From Methylophaga nitratireducenticrescens (GTDB lineage: Bacteria; Pseudomonadota; Gammaproteobacteria; Nitrosococcales; Methylophagaceae), in the NCBI RefSeq assembly GCF_000260985.4, contig NC_017857.3:62001-126000 (forward strand): DNA of 64,000 nt, given 5' to 3'. Below, in pieces: positions 2,927-9,848 of the stretch (positions within the stretch are counted from its first letter, which is position 1; each line of letters begins with the position of its first letter). The position numbers were made by a program, and so were the translations under genes. A model generated the notes under the pieces. That model was not told where the DNA came from and made no database searches. It saw only the letters and a list, made by a program, of their open reading frames with translations.

Positions 2927-5326
2927 ATGTCGCGACTTGTGTCACGCCTTTTAAAATGGGGCTTTAGCTTTTTTGTAGCCGGTCTACTGTTTATCGCTGT
3001 AGTCTATCTATTTTTATCACCTAAACTTCCGAGTCCGGAATCACTACGCTCGGTTCAGTTGCAGATACCCTTACGTATTTTTAGTGAAGAAGGTCTTTTA
3101 ATGGCTGAATTTGGAGAGAAACGCCGAATTCCTGTCCAGTATGAGGATTTTCCGCCCAAACTCATACAAGCTTTCCTCGCAGCCGAAGACGATCGCTTTT
3201 TTGAACACCCTGGCGTGGATTATCAAGGGTTGCTCCGGGCAGCATATTCGCTGGCTGTTACCGGCGAAAAAACACAGGGTGGCAGTACCATTACCATGCA
3301 GGTTGCCCGTAATTTTTTCTTAAGTAATGAAAAAACATATTTGCGCAAAATTAATGAGATTATTCTGTCATTAGAAATAGAAAATACTCTCTCCAAAGAA
3401 GAAATTCTTGCTTTGTATCTAAATAAAATATTCCTGGGTCATCGCTCTTACGGTGTTGGAGCGGCAGCTGATGTTTATTATGGTAAAAAGCTCGAAGAGT
3501 TAACGCTGGGCCAAATGGCAATGATCGCCGGATTACCCAAAGCTCCTTCTACCACGAATCCGATCACTTCTCCGCAACGAGCGATGGACCGCCGAAATTA
3601 TGTACTCAGCAGAATGCTTGATGTGGGTTTTATTACTCAGTCCGAATATCAAGATGCCTTAAAAGAAGAAGTGAGTGCACGCTATCATGGACGCGAAATA
3701 GAAGTTTATGCACCGTATGTTTCTGAAATGGTGCGCACTTATCTGATAGATGAATTTGGTGAAGAAATCTACGAAAAGGGTATTCGAGTATTTACAACGA
3801 TCAAAGCTAAACATCAGCAAGCGGCAACCAAGGCATTGCAAGATGCTTTATTGGCCTATGACAAACGTCATGGTTATCGAGGACCAACAGCGAAAGTAGA
3901 TCTGAGTGAATTACCGGATTTGGCAGCATCAGAACAGTTTCTGAAAGATTTTTCGATTATAGGATCCATCAGCCCAGGTCTGGTATTGAGCATAAAAGAT
4001 AACTCTGCTCAGGTATTTGTGAAGGATTTCGGACAAATTGAATTACCCTTTTCAGCGGTAAGTTGGGCTCAGCCGCAGCTCAGTGCATACAGCATGGGGA
4101 AAAAACCACAATCCATAAATGAGGTATTAACTGTTGGCGATATTATCTATCTACGAGCGTTAGAAGACGATGAATGGCAGTTAACACAAATTCCCGAAGT
4201 ACAGGGAGCCTTGGTCTCGCTTGCTCCTGAAGATGGCGCAATAACCTCTTTACAAGGAGGATTTGATTTCTTCCAGAGTAAATTTAATCGTGCAACACAA
4301 TCAAAGCGTCAACCTGGATCAGGATTTAAGCCTTTTGTTTATTCAGCTGCACTGGAAAAAGGCTATACGGCCGCAACTGTAGTAAATGATGCGCCAGTGG
4401 TATTTGATGATCCGGGGTTGGAGAATGTCTGGCGCCCCGAAAATTACAGTGGACGTTTTTTTGGCCCCACCCGATTAAGGGAAGCACTTACGCACTCTCG
4501 AAACCTTGTTTCTATACGGCTGTTAAGAGATATTGGAATTGCCTATACAGTGGATTATGTACAACGGTTTGGATTTCTGCCTGAGCAAGTACCACCGAAT
4601 TTATCTATAGCCTTAGGTAGTGGTAACGCTGCACCATTAGATATGGCGCGGGCATATGCGACATTAGCCAATGGTGGGTACCTGATAGACCCTTATATTA
4701 TTAATCGGGTTGAAAATGCTGCTGGTGAAATTCTGATGCAGACCAAACCCAAGAAAGTCTGCGACAGCTGTGCTATACCCGCAGCCGATATCAGTGAAGA
4801 AGAAGCCCTGATGCAAGCTGAATTGTTAGGCTTTTATCCAGCCAAACAGGTCATTACCCCACAAAATGCTTACATTATTAACAGCATGCTGCGTGATGTA
4901 GTGAAGTTTGGTACAGGTCGCCAGGCATTAAGTTTAAATCGCGGTGACTTGGCGGGTAAAACCGGCACAACAAATGATCAACTGGATGCCTGGTTCAATG
5001 GCTTTAACCCCAAACTGGTTGCTATAAGCTGGGTCGGCTTTGATAATCCAAGTACCTTAGGTCGCTATGAAACGGGAGGACGTGCTGCTTTACCAATGTG
5101 GATTGATTTTATGCGTGTAGCACTTGAAGATATTCCCGAACAAAGCTTTCAGCAGCCTGTTGATATGGTCACTGTTCGCATTGATCCGGAAACAGGATTG
5201 CAGGCACAACCAGACGATACGGATGCAATTTACGAAATCTTCCGTAAAGAAAATGTTCCGGCAATGCGTGGTGGCAGTAGCACCTCAGCCGAAGAACAGG
5301 ATGATTCACTTATCGAACTTTTCTAG
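2927..5326 (+). CDS. mrcA: Penicillin-binding protein 1a (bifunctional peptidoglycan synthase)
   Basis: Class A PBP that polymerises glycan strands and cross-links peptides at the outer face of the inner membrane. About 799 residues, close to the usual 800-850. One N-terminal membrane anchor (about 12-32) is followed by the GT51 domain with EDDRFFEHPG (about 87-96) and GGSTITMQVARNFF, then an OB-like insert, then the transpeptidase domain with catalytic SGFK (Ser about 465), a SRN box and KTGTT (about 676). The start is taken at MSRLVS rather than 17 codons upstream because the extension MCLYILYG lacks family support; neither has a strong ribosome site. Divergent from pilM. Confidence 0.95.
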   Translation: MSRLVSRLLKWGFSFFVAGLLFIAVVYLFLSPKLPSPESLRSVQLQIPLRIFSEEGLLMAEFGEKRRIPVQYEDFPPKLIQAFLAAEDDRFFEHPGVDYQGLLRAAYSLAVTGEKTQGGSTITMQVARNFFLSNEKTYLRKINEIILSLEIENTLSKEEILALYLNKIFLGHRSYGVGAAADVYYGKKLEELTLGQMAMIAGLPKAPSTTNPITSPQRAMDRRNYVLSRMLDVGFITQSEYQDALKEEVSARYHGREIEVYAPYVSEMVRTYLIDEFGEEIYEKGIRVFTTIKAKHQQAATKALQDALLAYDKRHGYRGPTAKVDLSELPDLAASEQFLKDFSIIGSISPGLVLSIKDNSAQVFVKDFGQIELPFSAVSWAQPQLSAYSMGKKPQSINEVLTVGDIIYLRALEDDEWQLTQIPEVQGALVSLAPEDGAITSLQGGFDFFQSKFNRATQSKRQPGSGFKPFVYSAALEKGYTAATVVNDAPVVFDDPGLENVWRPENYSGRFFGPTRLREALTHSRNLVSIRLLRDIGIAYTVDYVQRFGFLPEQVPPNLSIALGSGNAAPLDMARAYATLANGGYLIDPYIINRVENAAGEILMQTKPKKVCDSCAIPAADISEEEALMQAELLGFYPAKQVITPQNAYIINSMLRDVVKFGTGRQALSLNRGDLAGKTGTTNDQLDAWFNGFNPKLVAISWVGFDNPSTLGRYETGGRAALPMWIDFMRVALEDIPEQSFQQPVDMVTVRIDPETGLQAQPDDTDAIYEIFRKENVPAMRGGSSTSAEEQDDSLIELF

Positions 5327-5473
5327 GGCTTGTTTACCCCGCGTCTCTACTATTGCTGGGACACCATTGGTTGGGGAAAGATCCTATTAAGGTCCTTGGA
5401 GCAGATTTTATTCATCAGGCATCAAACCATAGAACTCATGGAGTAAGCCAGCAGCTTTATTGGAAAGATTGGC

Positions 5474-6571
5474 TCAATCACTTTCACTGACCAGCCTTCT
5501 CAAGCGATTCATGACCTCCATGTTTGCCTCTTCCATTGCCGAAAGCGCCTGCAGAGCCTCTTCGGACTCTCCGGCTTGATACAGTTCAACTGCCCGTCTC
5601 GCCTGCACATGGACTTGACGGTGAGGCTCCTCAATGCGCTGAAATTCGGAAGCATTCATAAACACCGTCTGTCCTGAACCTTCATAGTACCAACGGCCGA
5701 GGCGACATTCTTCTTCACTTGGCAACGACTTTGGATCGACGTATTCCAGCCCCAGTAAGCAACGGTAGACTAACAACTTGATCTCCAACTCTTCCAGATT
5801 GGCAAACTCCACTTCGCTGGCCAAAGCGGTGCGATTGAGCACACGTCCCCCATCGCCTGCCAGACCCAGCACTTCAGTGGTGCGAGCCAAAATCCGACTG
5901 GCATTCTCGTCCACTCGACTGACTGCTTCAGAGTTGGCCTGCATGTCAGCATCCGCTTGTCGTGTTTGAGCCTGAATAGTGTCGACCAGCGATCTGATCT
6001 CGCGTGTGGCATCACTGGTACGCTCGGAGAGACTTCTGACTTCACTGGCAACCACAGCAAAACCGCGTCCGTGGGTTCCGGCACGCGCCGCTTCAATACT
6101 GGCATTCAAGGCCAACAGATTTGTCTGATCGGAAATACTGTCGATCAAGGAGACAAACCGACTAACCTCCTCCGTGCGCTCCTGAAGAGTTCGCACTTGC
6201 TCGGCAGACTGACGGGTTGCAGTAACAATCTGACTGAGTTCAGCGCCCAATTGGTGCAGATCAGTTTCGTTAGATCGCGATGCCGACAAAGACTCACCAG
6301 CAGCGGCATTAGCCTCTTCCAACTGACCGGAAAACACTCCGAACGAATTCTTGAGCGCTGTCAATGAGGCACTGAAACCGGTAAAACTACTTAAAATACC
6401 CTGCTGTTCTGTAAACTGATGCTGCCGAGATATCTGTTCGGAACGCAAATCTTCACGTTCTTTTTCAAGCATCCGCACCTGTTCCTGAAGAGAACGGTTC
6501 TCCGCGATCAATAGATCCTTTTCATCATCAATCGGCGGGTTGCGCCAGAACAGCAATGCACTTCCAAACAT
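5474..6571 (-). CDS. Soluble chemoreceptor with C-terminal CZB zinc-binding-type domain
   Basis: Methyl-accepting-chemotaxis-type signalling protein without a convincing membrane segment or signal peptide, so probably cytoplasmic. The N-terminal coiled coil (about 18-60) leads into the MCP hairpin with the kinase-contact tip [18 protein letters not shown] (about 149-166) and [14 protein letters not shown]-terminal CZB domain (about 258-330) shows the CRLGRWYY core (Cys289) and the PHRQVH pair (His317, His321). The first histidine normally found in CZB helix 1 appears to be replaced (KLLVYR, about 265-270), so metal binding may be altered. It is divergent from nnrS with an NsrR operator between them, which suggests a link to NO stress. 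The sensory ligand is unknown. Confidence 0.85.
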
Positions 6572-6601
6572 GGCACTAACCTCTTTGATTATTTTTTATA
6601 A

Positions 6602-6624
6602 TAAATGTATTTTACATACATCTT
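6602..6624. promoter_or_regulatory. NsrR operator between the CZB chemoreceptor and nnrS
   Basis: A 23-bp imperfect palindrome whose half sites ATGTAT and ATACATCTT are centred 1 bp apart as in the known NsrR consensus (AAGATGYATTT, one base, AAATRCATCTT). It lies about 30 bp upstream of the chemoreceptor start and 24 bp upstream of the nnrS start, so it could repress both. The same pattern recurs before ytfE and an nsrR-like gene is 1.2 kb away. Seen by eye; binding is inferred. Confidence 0.75.
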
Positions 6625-6647
6625 ATTACAACATCAAAGGATAACAA

Positions 6648-7817
6648 ATGCCGACTGATGTCAGCAGCACAGTTATGTACAATCAATCGAAGGTCTGGTT
6701 GGCTCTGTGGTTGTTCCCGCTGGTCAGCGCCTATGCGATGATCATTATGCCTCTGACATTGTACAGCCTGTATCAGACACAAGGCTTGCCAGGGCTGAGC
6801 CAGCCTGAAGGCCATGCGCATGAGATGCTGTTCGGATTGGTTACTGGTTTGATTGCTGGCTATCTAAGCGGTCGCCCAGAACGTAAAGTTGCTCTACTGA
6901 TACTGCTGGCATGGTTTGCAGCCCGGGTGGCCTCGCTTAACTGGCCAGATAGTCTTTGGTCTACGGTACTGCAGGCGCTACTAGTTGCCCTGCTGCTCTG
7001 GCAGATACTTCCGCGTCTGAACGCCGCTAAACGCTGGCGAAACCGCATACTGCTGCCATTAATCTTTGCATTGCTGGGGCTGGGCGTGTTGAGTGCGTTG
7101 AGCCGAGGACTTACTTTGCCGATGTGGTTTTGGCCGACCGCCCAAGTTACCGGCATATTGCTGGCATTATTGTTAAGCTACATGGGCGGCCGTTTGCTGG
7201 CCCCAGCCATCGCCAATGCTATAGATCGTACCGGTGGAACAATACTGAAGGCTCGAGTGCAACCACGTATCGAAGGAGGCCTGATCCTTACGCTGGCTAC
7301 GGCCGCCCTTCTATCTTTGTCGAGCACTCAAATTCCAGGTTGGTTTAGCGCACTACCATTGTGGCTAGCAGCACTGTTGATCTGTATACGAATCGTCCGC
7401 TGGCAGCCGTGGCGTCTGGGTGGCCGCTTGGATCTGTTATGCCTGCTAGCAGGTTATGGCTGGCTGGCACCGGGACTTATAGTCATGGCGCTGCAACAAA
7501 CACGAGGTCTTTCAACTGGACCGGGGTTGCATCTGGTGACCATCGGTACTCTGGGTATTCTGGCCACTGGTGTAATTATGCGGCTGACGGCACAACGTCG
7601 CAAACGTGACCTGCCAACCGGAAGCTGGTGGGCCCTGATTGCCCTGCTTTTCAGCCTTGCAGCCGTCAGTCGGGCCCTGCCCGATCTGTTCCTCTTGCTT
7701 CCCTGGAGCGCGCGAACAATACTGTATTTCTTCGCTGCTGGTGGCTGGTCACTGGCCTGGGGATTAACACTGATTTATCAATTGCGAACACTACAACGTC
7801 CGGTAGTGAGTACTTAG
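6648..7817 (+). CDS. nnrS: NnrS-family membrane protein (nitric oxide stress)
   Basis: Polytopic inner-membrane protein of the NnrS family, reported to contain haem and copper and to relieve NO-induced stress. The family motif GHAHEMLFG follows the first helix (about residues 50-58), and the late helix contains HLVTIGTLGILATGVIMR. About twelve hydrophobic segments in 389 residues. A good ribosome site (AAAGGA, 6-7 nt upstream) supports the start. The nnrS stop codon TAG lies inside the ribosome-binding region of nsrR, so the two form an operon. An NsrR operator precedes it. High confidence in family; exact biochemistry is unsettled. Confidence 0.92.
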   Translation: MPTDVSSTVMYNQSKVWLALWLFPLVSAYAMIIMPLTLYSLYQTQGLPGLSQPEGHAHEMLFGLVTGLIAGYLSGRPERKVALLILLAWFAARVASLNWPDSLWSTVLQALLVALLLWQILPRLNAAKRWRNRILLPLIFALLGLGVLSALSRGLTLPMWFWPTAQVTGILLALLLSYMGGRLLAPAIANAIDRTGGTILKARVQPRIEGGLILTLATAALLSLSSTQIPGWFSALPLWLAALLICIRIVRWQPWRLGGRLDLLCLLAGYGWLAPGLIVMALQQTRGLSTGPGLHLVTIGTLGILATGVIMRLTAQRRKRDLPTGSWWALIALLFSLAAVSRALPDLFLLLPWSARTILYFFAAGGWSLAWGLTLIYQLRTLQRPVVST

Positions 7818-7826
7818 GAGACAACA

Positions 7827-8264
7827 TTGCGTATTACAAGCTATACCGACTATGCCCTGCGCGTCCTCATTTATCTGGCGGCAGAGCCCGGACGCAAAAC
7901 GACCATCAGAGAAATTTCAACGACCTTTGGTATTTCCAAGAATCACCTGATGAAAGTGGTAAATCAACTAAGCCGATTAGGGTATATTGATTCTGTTCGG
8001 GGAAAGAACGGTGGTCTGAACCTGCATTGCTCACCGACAGAAGTCAATCTGGGCATATTGTTCCAGCAAACAGAAACCGACTTAGGCCTGGTGGAATGTT
8101 ACACTGAGAACAACACCTGCAGTATCACCCCTGCGTGCCAGCTCAAACACATTCTGGCAGAGGCACAGCAGGCGTTCATTGATGTTCTGGGGCAATACAG
8201 CCTGGCCGATCTGGTCACAGCCAGACACCGGCCAGAACTGTTAAAACTGCTAAACCTGAACTGA
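7827..8264 (+). CDS. nsrR: Rrf2-family nitric oxide-sensing repressor NsrR
   Basis: Iron-sulfur repressor that releases DNA on nitrosylation by NO. The protein closely follows the NsrR pattern: an N-terminal winged helix (TSYTDYALRVLIYLA, then ISKNHLMKVVNQLSRLGYI and VRGKNGG) and three cluster cysteines C91, C98 and C104 in a CSITPAC context. A TTG start is chosen because GGAG sits 9 nt upstream and the protein then begins exactly as NsrR proteins do (MRITSYTDY). 145 residues, normal length. Cotranscribed with nnrS; two NsrR-like operators nearby imply local autoregulation. Confidence 0.93.
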   Translation: MRITSYTDYALRVLIYLAAEPGRKTTIREISTTFGISKNHLMKVVNQLSRLGYIDSVRGKNGGLNLHCSPTEVNLGILFQQTETDLGLVECYTENNTCSITPACQLKHILAEAQQAFIDVLGQYSLADLVTARHRPELLKLLNLN

Positions 8265-8285
8265 GTGCCTCCCTGTGGAGAACTT

Positions 8286-8960
8286 TCAGGCAGCCAGAGC
8301 CCGACGGAACAATACATTATTCTCCAGATGAATATGTTCCATCAGATCATTACGCAACTGATCCAGTCCGAGATACAAGGCACGCCAAGTGTTACAGGCG
8401 TCTGCAGGTGGTGTCATATCGTTTGTTAGCTCAACCAGACGCTGCAGCGCTTCTCCGTGGTCATTATGCTCGTGCATCATGACTTGAATAGGGCCGCCAG
8501 CATGAGCGCCAGCACCTTGCTGAAGCATGGGGAACAGAATGCTCTCTTCCTTTTGCATATGACTTTCCAACTCATTTTCCAAGATCTCAAGCTGATCTGC
8601 CAGCCCCAGCGGACAATCGGACTTGTCTCCGTGTACCGTCTCAACTCTGCGCGCCATACGGCGAAGCTCCGGAAGTTGCTCTCGGTGCACCAAATGGAAA
8701 TGGTTGTAGATGTAGTTGACCAGTTCGGGAATCGGTCGTGTTGTCCAATCCTGTTCGGGTGACTCATCTTTCAGCGCTTCCAACTGTTTCAGCACGGGTT
8801 CGGCATCCAGTTGTTTGCGCTGCAAAGCTTCTTCAAGACTGATGCCCCCGCCGCAGCAGAAATCCAGCTTATACTGTCGAAAGACCCGCGTGGCACCGGC
8901 AAGCTGCGTGGCAATTTCGCCAAGACTGGTTTGTAGCAGGGACTGGGTAGATGTGGTCAT
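8286..8960 (-). CDS. ytfE: Iron-sulfur cluster repair di-iron protein YtfE (RIC)
   Basis: Di-iron hemerythrin-like protein that repairs iron-sulfur clusters damaged by NO or oxidative stress. The N-terminal ScdA-type domain carries the signature FCCGGG (about residues 34-39). The C-terminal domain contains regularly placed His/Glu ligands (HFHLVHREQLPEL, HMQKEE, MMHEHNDHG, HIHLENN). 224 residues, as in E. coli. The start is set at MTTSTQ, preceded by AGGAGC; the longer frame begins inside the operator. Converges with nsrR. Expected to be NsrR-repressed through the palindrome just upstream. Confidence 0.95.
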   Translation of the reverse strand: MTTSTQSLLQTSLGEIATQLAGATRVFRQYKLDFCCGGGISLEEALQRKQLDAEPVLKQLEALKDESPEQDWTTRPIPELVNYIYNHFHLVHREQLPELRRMARRVETVHGDKSDCPLGLADQLEILENELESHMQKEESILFPMLQQGAGAHAGGPIQVMMHEHNDHGEALQRLVELTNDMTPPADACNTWRALYLGLDQLRNDLMEHIHLENNVLFRRALAA

Positions 8961-8973
8961 AATGCGCTCCTTA

Positions 8974-8996
8974 AAGGTGTATTTAAAAAACATCTT
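8974..8996 (-). promoter_or_regulatory. NsrR operator upstream of ytfE
   Basis: A 23-bp palindrome with half sites AAGGTGTATTT and AAAAACATCTT around one central base, which is nearly the published NsrR consensus. It lies 14 bp upstream of the ytfE ATG, in a position to overlap the promoter or transcript start. Together with the site before nnrS it defines a local NsrR regulon. Confidence 0.8.
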
Positions 8997-9046
8997 TTGA
9001 AAGGTATTATGGACTCATCTTTAACGATGTCAAGTATGGTCCTTCA

Positions 9047-9411
9047 GGGTCTGTTGATCTTTCATCTCCACCACTTCTGGAGGCTATGTTTTGTGTCCGA
9101 CAAGGCGGAAAGCATGCCGTGTAGTATCTTACATAAGTAATTGAAAATAAGTCTGGAACGCATTTGAACAGCTTTGCTGGCCGCGTAGCGGTGAATTACA
9201 GGGTGCGCAGTCGGTCGCAAAATAGTCCCAGCCCTTCGAGTGCAGGGACGCACAGGAGTGACCACTCCATCCATGGAGATAAACGTTTTTGCGCGTAAGC
9301 CCCAATAATGGGGTGAGATGCATGAATGTATCTCACAAAAGGCGCTCCTCGTGCCTTGATTGACGCTTTTTCAGCTCACAACAGAGGCGGAGATGAAAGA
9401 TCAACAAATCC
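9047..9411. mobile_element. MITE-like non-autonomous element, copy A
   Basis: A 365-bp sequence bounded by inverted ends: GGGTCTGTTGATCTTTCAT on the left and its slightly degenerate complement on the right. Read in reverse complement, it aligns over its first 150 bp or so with the element near 39.0-39.4 kb, including a GTGAGATACAT palindrome and a CTCCATGGATGGAG hairpin; the rest is diverged. No transposase frame is present. The family resembles a miniature inverted-repeat transposable element mobilised in trans. Target duplication at this copy is not clean (CA on the left, TA on the right). Confidence 0.75.
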
Positions 9412-9848
9412 TAGTGTTTCACTTCGTCCAGCAGAACAGAAATAATGCGTTGCCGGTATTCAACAAAAGTCATTTGCAACAACGTAATGCAGAAAACAGC
9501 CCCGTCCATTACGTGTAGCGGCTGAAAATACGCTGCTTAATGTTGATTATCTTTTGACTGTAAATCACATAATGGTAGCAATATCATTCGCGTGAATAGT
9601 CAACAAAAAAATGGAGCAAAGGGATAGCCTTCTAACTTCATCTCTATCGCGTGGTAATCCTTTTTCAACCACAACTGATGATGAGACATGAATAAATCTC
9701 TATGGGGCAAGTACCTTTTTTCCAGGTCAGCAAAGACGGCGAGGCAGATCCTTATAAGCAGACAGGACTGTCAACACTGCTCTATTGATGATGTCAATTT
9801 CTCAAATAGAATTCGTTGAAGCTGAACGTCACTCAAACAATATAATAG
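9412..9848. other. Intergenic region without recognisable gene
   Basis: About 440 bp between the MITE-like element and the M48 protease gene. I see no protein family, RNA gene or clear terminator. A 42-codon frame beginning near 9690 has no good ribosome site or recognisable product. Possibly decayed sequence brought in with or disrupted by the element. Confidence 0.5.

Follow-up and report, generated by a model that had tools for sequence, protein, structure and literature searches.

The gene at 5474-6571 (minus strand) of the window, by which we mean the whole 64,000-nucleotide stretch of Methylophaga nitratireducenticrescens DNA that was analysed, is best read, from its sequence and a structural model, as encoding a soluble, TlpD-like chemoreceptor of the cytoplasmic type that belongs to a distinct clade of CZB receptors. 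In this clade, which we call Glu-type, glutamate occupies the helix-1 position at which other CZB domains (His-type) carry a zinc-binding histidine. Judged by comparison of the sequences sampled, the exchange is a conserved, clade-wide change with partner changes elsewhere in the domain, and not the quirk of a single gene or a sign of decay. On the best reading, the clade is a CZB subclass of its own, of which the literature searched showed no description, that belongs to nitric oxide (NO) regulons and that probably uses a rebuilt metal site to read either NO or the redox state of denitrification.

A variant metal site in a predicted cytoplasmic receptor

The 365-residue product combines an MCPsignal domain (residues 120-232; 114 bits) with a C-terminal CZB domain (PF13682) that passes its curated Pfam cut-off (49.9 against 29.4 bits). 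The CZB helical domain lies at 5477-5854 (minus strand; about residues 240-365), approximate limits that combine the PF13682 match at residues 268-328 with the helices of the model. In the AlphaFold2 prediction, helices 14-163 and 169-272 form a long hairpin that bears a helical CZB bundle; the pLDDT is 85.7 for the full length and 91.6 for residues 225-365 alone. The model is helical throughout and has a plain N-terminal helix; membrane segments were judged from the sequence and this model. The protein has the arrangement by which a TlpD-like receptor is recognized, with the MCP signalling hairpin leading into a CZB domain at the C-terminus. The genome holds a single CZB match, which is this receptor, and ten matches to CheW-type domains. 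An earlier note on this DNA had called 5474-6571 a CZB chemoreceptor, and the coordinates, the strand, the length and both Pfam domains agree with that call.

The same note held that the first of the zinc histidines had been replaced. In a gap-free alignment, two relatives (L004 and L005) read KLDHIVWKFEIYR, and the window protein has Glu261 (codon at 5789-5791, minus strand) in place of their helix-1 histidine and Glu260 in place of the preceding aspartate. Both the relatives and an alignment to DgcZ of Escherichia coli identify Glu261 as the replaced residue. The replacement therefore stands, although the note had placed it inside the stretch KLLVYR, which begins a few residues further on. 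Three ligand positions that the note had listed are retained where it put them, namely Cys289 (5705-5707) and the His317 and His321 of an HxxxH motif (5609-5623), all on the minus strand. A second glutamate, Glu286 (5714-5716, minus strand), appears from its spacing to the cysteine to be the equivalent of His337 in TlpD. As the only histidines of the whole protein are residues 51, 106, 167, 317 and 321, there is no substitute elsewhere in the CZB part that could fill the helix-1 site.

A profile that mixes 4 Glu-type rows with 39 other CZB domains (43 in all) matches the solved CZB domain of DgcZ (PDB 3t9o; E = 1.7e-5) and aligns the histidine column of the family with a DgcZ histidine that has a tryptophan three residues on. 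The zinc ligand His22 of DgcZ has a tryptophan at exactly this distance (PMC8262984). Alignment with a solved CZB domain thus confirmed the missing histidine, and another histidine in the site, which the earlier note had named as the result that would tell against it, was not found. A profile of Glu-type domains alone matched no solved structure, DgcZ included. In a structure search with the receptor model, 3t9o was the top row (Z 11.6, rmsd 2.7, 115 residues aligned), but unrelated helical bundles tie with it in Z, so that the fold alone is not decisive; TlpD entries were absent among the structure matches listed. Set against the canonical site of three histidines and one cysteine, the protein has the cysteine and the HxxxH pair and lacks the helix-1 histidine. 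With Glu261 in its place, we describe the domain as a variant and not as a canonical zinc CZB. Glu261 may itself be a metal ligand, and not simply a lost histidine.

Glutamate and histidine across CZB relatives

Among 119 distinct CZB domains, the helix-1 residue is histidine in 69, glutamate in 48 and not covered in two, and no other residue occurs in the 117 that are covered; the split of 48 to 69 includes rows retrieved by motif and is no estimate of frequency. The 119 were distilled from 154 domains, comprising the window and all loci, minus copies of its own locus and flanks that had been fetched again (L174-L207). The cysteine and both HxxxH histidines are kept in 118 of the 119. On these two grounds, the restriction of helix 1 to histidine or glutamate and the persistence of the other three ligands, we rejected a degenerate or dead site as the main reading. 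The one exception, L077 (genome G335), is a His-type CZB domain with serine at the usual cysteine position.

Our first set of relatives came from a scan of genome contigs with six peptides and comprised 36 loci, of which 33 have glutamate, two (L124 and L126) are His-type and one (L127) is not covered. As one of the six peptides was the glutamate motif NLEELEIK, this uniformity proves little about conservation, and surveys free of the motif were therefore added. Among the matches listed for a class-wide sample, 35 loci (29 from the sample itself and 6 from a same-genus search, with some His-type loci falling outside the comparison) gave 3 with glutamate, 31 with histidine and 1 not covered. 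In the genus of Marinobacter oulmenensis, 15 of 81 genomes have a match and 12, the query included, have an orthologue of at least 71% identity. All 12 orthologues carry the glutamate; three of them are new, and one of these (L136) keeps Glu261 within a varied motif (EELDIKL). Among 201 genomes of the family to which Halomonas sp. NO4 belongs, 52 gave matches, and the best 30 loci divide into 19 Glu-type, 10 of them new, and 11 His-type. Among 24 Methylophaga genomes, the present one included, a strong full-length match occurs in the present genome only, the next best being His-type matches of 32-35% identity in three genomes; the receptor gene was thus probably gained. The block of receptor gene, nnrS, nsrR and ytfE (window 5001-9000) has a GC fraction of 0.50-0.53, against 0.42-0.45 upstream and 0.43-0.50 downstream, which hints weakly at acquisition by transfer.

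When 35 Glu-type receptors were compared with 49 His-type receptors, the columns that separate them (17 listed) clustered round the metal site. From His-type to Glu-type, the residue changes from lysine to asparagine at 258, aspartate to glutamate at 260, histidine to glutamate at 261 and an aromatic residue to isoleucine at 264 (isoleucine or valine in the clade as a whole); 284 becomes proline, 286 changes from histidine to glutamate, 350 from serine to asparagine and 358 from an acidic residue to arginine. All 30 halomonad loci are unmixed at 258, 261 and 264, and their further flanks are consistent with this. At position 286, the halomonad Glu-type loci have glutamate (15), aspartate (3) or alanine (1), and all 11 His-type loci have histidine; over the distinct domains the Glu-type counts are 42 glutamate, 3 alanine and 3 aspartate, and 61 of the 69 His-type domains have histidine. 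Two Glu-type alignments, one of 30 rows and the other of 26, show the cysteine, both histidines and the glutamate to be invariant.

Trees of 84 and 105 rows place the Glu label on one branch as a single change (support 98), with the Glu-type rows nested among His-type rows under midpoint rooting. Masking the site columns gives two changes, and the signalling part alone gives three; supported branches force only one. Three loci (L181-L183) form a separate Glu-type branch with Asp286.

For these positions we refer to TlpD of Helicobacter pylori, in which His315, Cys340, His368 and His372 bind the zinc and His337 stands close to it without serving as a ligand (PMC12871147). By spacing to the cysteine, position 261 corresponds to His315 and position 286 to His337. 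Bromide takes the place of His315 in one TlpD chain, and the authors regard the dimer with this chain as the zinc-disrupted state, with long-range rearrangement (PMC12871147). As release of His315 goes with the zinc-disrupted state, the Glu-type clade has altered a ligand that is linked to signalling. TlpD resembles the window protein in its MCP hairpin and C-terminal CZB domain, in its cysteine and HxxxH motif and in an acidic residue before the helix-1 ligand; it differs in having an N-terminal PAS domain and histidine at both 315 and 337, where the window protein has a plain N-terminal helix (in the model) and two glutamates (PMC12871147). The window receptor is also unlike TlpD in that its gene stands beside an NsrR-type site.

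Two further CZB proteins allow comparison. McpA of Salmonella Typhimurium is, like the window protein, a CZB chemoreceptor without PAS (PMC13370339, PMC12871147), but it has the site of three histidines and one cysteine and mediates oxidant, zinc and oxygen taxis (PMC13370339); words beginning 'nitric' are absent from that McpA text. DgcZ (PDB 3t9o, 4h54) shares the CZB fold and differs in binding zinc through three histidines and one cysteine and in carrying an N-terminal CZB domain that drives a diguanylate cyclase (PMC8262984). That survey of CZB domains calls the motif of three histidines and one cysteine ubiquitous, and words beginning 'nitric' or 'glutam' are absent from the portion of its text searched (PMC8262984).

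Nitric oxide genes and predicted regulatory sites near the receptor

The earlier note had also proposed that the receptor gene and nnrS share an NsrR operator. A predicted NsrR-type palindrome does lie between them, at 6602-6624, in the promoter region of the receptor gene, so that NsrR binding and NO-stress control are predicted here from sequence. Divergent from the receptor gene is nnrS (6648-7817, plus strand; PF05940, 151.9 bits), which scores lowest among the three NnrS genes of the genome. Nine bases further on is nsrR (7827-8264, plus strand), an Rrf2-family gene (PF02082, 122.9 bits) whose best NCBIfam model is NsrR at 143.4 bits, below the cut-off of 182. It is followed by ytfE/RIC (8286-8993, minus strand), which encodes an Fe-S repair di-iron protein (NCBIfam YtfE, 323.3 bits against a cut-off of 254) and is the single RIC match in the genome, with a second predicted NsrR-type operator upstream of it at 8974-8996. 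As this box reaches into the opening codons of the ytfE frame as called, translation of ytfE probably starts at an internal ATG, at about 8960. In the gap that follows ytfE, an inverted repeat spans 9046-9412 (30-nt arms, 87% complementary, 307 nt apart); it could be a MITE-like or other small mobile element.

The two operators, with 3 (6602-6624) and 2 (8974-8996) mismatches to an NsrR 23-mer, are the only sites in the 64 kb with at most 3 mismatches, and 100 shuffles gave none. The published NsrR core is gATGyAT-N5-ATrCATc (PMC1274295), and 6602-6624 agrees with it at 13 of 14 positions, the top score in the window. The published regulon resembles the window in this operator core and in having nnrS and dnrN as members (PMC1274295); the word chemotaxis is absent there. 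A weak promoter-like match for the receptor gene (6637-6609, minus strand) is overlapped by the operator at 6602-6624, in a promoter scan whose 5 matches do not exceed chance expectation (3.2 +- 2.2). In M. nitratireducenticrescens, the nnrS1-nsrR1-dnrN/ytfE cluster rises 2.4 to 16 times when either strain is cultured anoxically with nitrate, as reported in PMC11526790, a text from which the word chemotaxis is absent.

Among halomonads, NnrS, RIC, NorR or NorB lies within about 8 kb of 18 of 19 Glu-type loci and of 1 of 20 His-type loci (p = 6e-9). The earlier note had proposed a survey of this kind and had named a lack of co-occurrence with NO genes as evidence against its reading; no such lack was found. 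This, the cleanest of the comparisons, stays within one family, was not selected by motif and uses 20 His-type loci whose residues were verified; its NO-gene profiles were seeded from Glu-type loci, L097 itself being part of the NsrR profile, whose matches were left uncounted, and in 4 of the 20 His-type and 2 of the Glu-type loci a contig end or clipping cuts the flank short. Six NorR identities were checked, from five Glu-type loci and L187, and all pass the NCBIfam NorR cut-off, while two NorB and five NnrS calls exceed their Pfam cut-offs. RIC matches of 85-94 bits in L097, L098, L117 and L123 are doubtful, and two of these, like the RIC match of L187, are haemerythrin-like only. L187 itself is a His-type receptor near norR.

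In a broader comparison, 15 of 36 Glu-type genomes have NnrS no more than 10 kb from the receptor, against 1 of 51 controls (Fisher p = 2e-6); the positions were compared by hand, and the 15 include L112, where an NnrS fragment lies at a contig end 4.5 kb away. The 51 controls were drawn from the matches listed and include fragmented assemblies; 43 are typed as His, seven (G003, G013, G026, G137, G376, G386 and G393) are untyped, with no CZB match in G003, and G383 is uncovered at the site. With the residue-typed controls the counts are 15 of 36 against 1 of 43 (p = 1e-5). The single NnrS-near case among the control genomes, within the matches listed, is L040 (G103:C70), in which a His-type CZB receptor (a 569-aa open frame) lies about 0.5 kb before nnrS. 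The RIC N-domain is found within 10 kb in 7 of 36 Glu-type genomes and none of 44 controls (p = 0.003), and RIC over its cut-off occurs anywhere in the genome in 11 of 36 against 0 of 44, a control set that leaves out G003, G013, G026, G087, G137, G155 and G256.

By their predicted genes, the Glu-type neighbourhoods are an anaerobic and NO setting in which gene order varies. In L181-L183 a divergent norR adjoins the start of the receptor gene, and norB comes directly next in L181 and L183, giving the order norR-receptor-norB. Wider neighbours include NorR, NorB with a quinol-type N-domain, NrdD, UbiT and U32 peptidases, together with a LuxR-type response regulator with a HisKA_3 kinase and a protoglobin GGDEF-EAL protein. 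In the halomonad L103, a protoglobin-PAS-GGDEF-EAL gene (L103:7479-9704) comes directly after the Glu-type receptor gene; its product is a possible c-di-GMP partner in the NO setting. Among the 12 Marinobacter genomes, NnrS adjoins the receptor in one; nine have it on the receptor's contig at a distance of 10 to 106 kb, one has it on another contig and one lacks it. In the same survey nirS occurs in 8 of 12 genomes with the Glu-type receptor and 25 of 69 others (p = 0.06), a suggestive but weak tie, and a second type of NnrS, defined by a bit-score band that we chose, in 11 of 12 against 26 of 69 (p = 0.0009).

The regulatory sites vary with lineage. An NsrR-like site (at least 16 of 22) stands upstream of 14 of 35 Glu-type receptors, mostly near the start of the open frame, and of 1 of 51 His-type receptors, several of which are near-duplicates; 21 of the 35 Glu-type rows have none at that level. 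The 14 are the window, nine Marinobacter (L136 included), two Ectothiorhodospiraceae MAGs, G240 (Arhodomonas, as its locus is identical with L122) and Saccharospirillum. Several halomonads (L103-L105 and L118) have the receptor gene after ytfE, with a sigma-54 match that agrees at 10 or 11 of its 11 positions ahead of the two genes. Matches of at least 10 of 11 were found at 5 of 20 Glu-type loci (these four and L100), with none that strong at the other 15. Of the halomonad flanks, 7 of the 13 that are Glu-type show such a match and 6 do not, and none of the 20 that are His-type shows one; three of these 13 Glu-type genomes overlap the 20-locus sample. Upstream of the receptor gene in L181-L183, a GG-N10-GC element can be made out by eye. 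With NsrR-like sites in some lineages and sigma-54 sites in others, two NO regulators, NsrR and NorR/sigma-54, seem to converge on the same receptor.

Control of the CRP/FNR type (DNR) was considered and rejected: sites of at least 9 of 10 are not enriched, as they precede one of the 35 Glu-type receptors and five of the 51 His-type receptors.

What the receptor may sense

We give roughly even chances to the following account as a whole, in which a Glu-type CZB receptor in an NO regulon reports the state of a Cys-metal site to CheA. NO would accumulate during nitrate respiration, and NsrR would let go; in the halomonads a NorR/sigma-54 setting would replace NsrR. The receptor would then be made together with NnrS, NsrR and YtfE and would join CheA/CheW arrays. 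There its Cys-metal site would be perturbed by NO, by nitrosating species or by an accompanying redox or metal shift, and the state of the site would be passed to CheA through the long hairpin. As loss of the helix-1 histidine marks the zinc-disrupted conformation of TlpD, its replacement by glutamate would retune the switch. Cells in NO-producing zones would gain a sensor for movement along NO or redox gradients, in a direction that the account does not predict.

Control by NO is not the same as sensing of NO, and the receptor may respond to oxygen, zinc or some other signal while NO times its expression. It is possible, if somewhat unlikely, that it is an ordinary zinc or oxidant receptor that uses the glutamate as fourth zinc ligand and senses as TlpD and McpA do, with NO again setting the timing. 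Cys289, His317 and His321 are kept, and glutamate is common as a zinc ligand. Published models ascribe CZB signalling to zinc occupancy (PMC13370339, PMC12871147). However, the exchange is fixed in the sampled clade together with partner changes at 258, 264 and 286, when a neutral swap needs none, and the Glu-type clade tracks NO genes. A site free of metal, its fold retained as a structural or protein-interaction module, would fit the absence of one of the four known ligands, but we think it very unlikely because a dead site would drift, whereas here the four residues are invariant in both Glu-type alignments and helix 1 never departs from histidine or glutamate where covered. The receptor might also merely travel with denitrification islands and have no functional link to NO. 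Its probable gain by this one genome among the 24 of Methylophaga favours such a passenger, as does its position in Marinobacter, mostly in the wider nnrS region and not beside nnrS; yet NO genes recur although their order differs between lineages, and the regulatory sites vary between NsrR-like and sigma-54 while the NO theme is constant, and we regard this alternative as most improbable.

A stronger claim would make the Glu-type CZB domain a direct NO sensor, with non-haem iron at a site of two histidines, the cysteine and the glutamate, and with NO binding that drives chemotaxis. We consider this doubtful, and just as doubtful that two changes from histidine to carboxylate, one of them at Glu286 three residues before the cysteine, converted the tetrahedral zinc site of three histidines and a cysteine for that purpose. 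If true, it would be a non-haem NO chemoreceptor derived from a zinc sensor. The NO sensor NorR uses mononuclear non-haem iron with carboxylate and cysteine ligands, held in the GAF domain of a sigma-54 activator; as NorR is no chemoreceptor, the likeness is a chemical analogy only. The NO-binding sensor domain sCache_heme also occurs on chemoreceptors and differs from CZB in fold and cofactor, being a Cache domain with covalent c-type haem (PMC12889525). PMC6710368 lists a chemoreceptor gene within the NnrR regulon of Bradyrhizobium. Among the literature matches listed for CZB, NsrR, nnrS, denitrification and NO taxis, mostly outside subscription journals, none ties a CZB receptor to NO.

The CZB domain is described as a zinc module of three histidines and one cysteine whose natural signal is debated, and the Glu-type clade, in which a ligand and a nearby histidine were exchanged together and which is tied to NO regulons, offers a natural experiment on what CZB domains sense. 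The account we prefer, a Glu-type receptor that would report the state of its Cys-metal site to CheA, makes this receptor a candidate for NO-guided movement of denitrifying bacteria.
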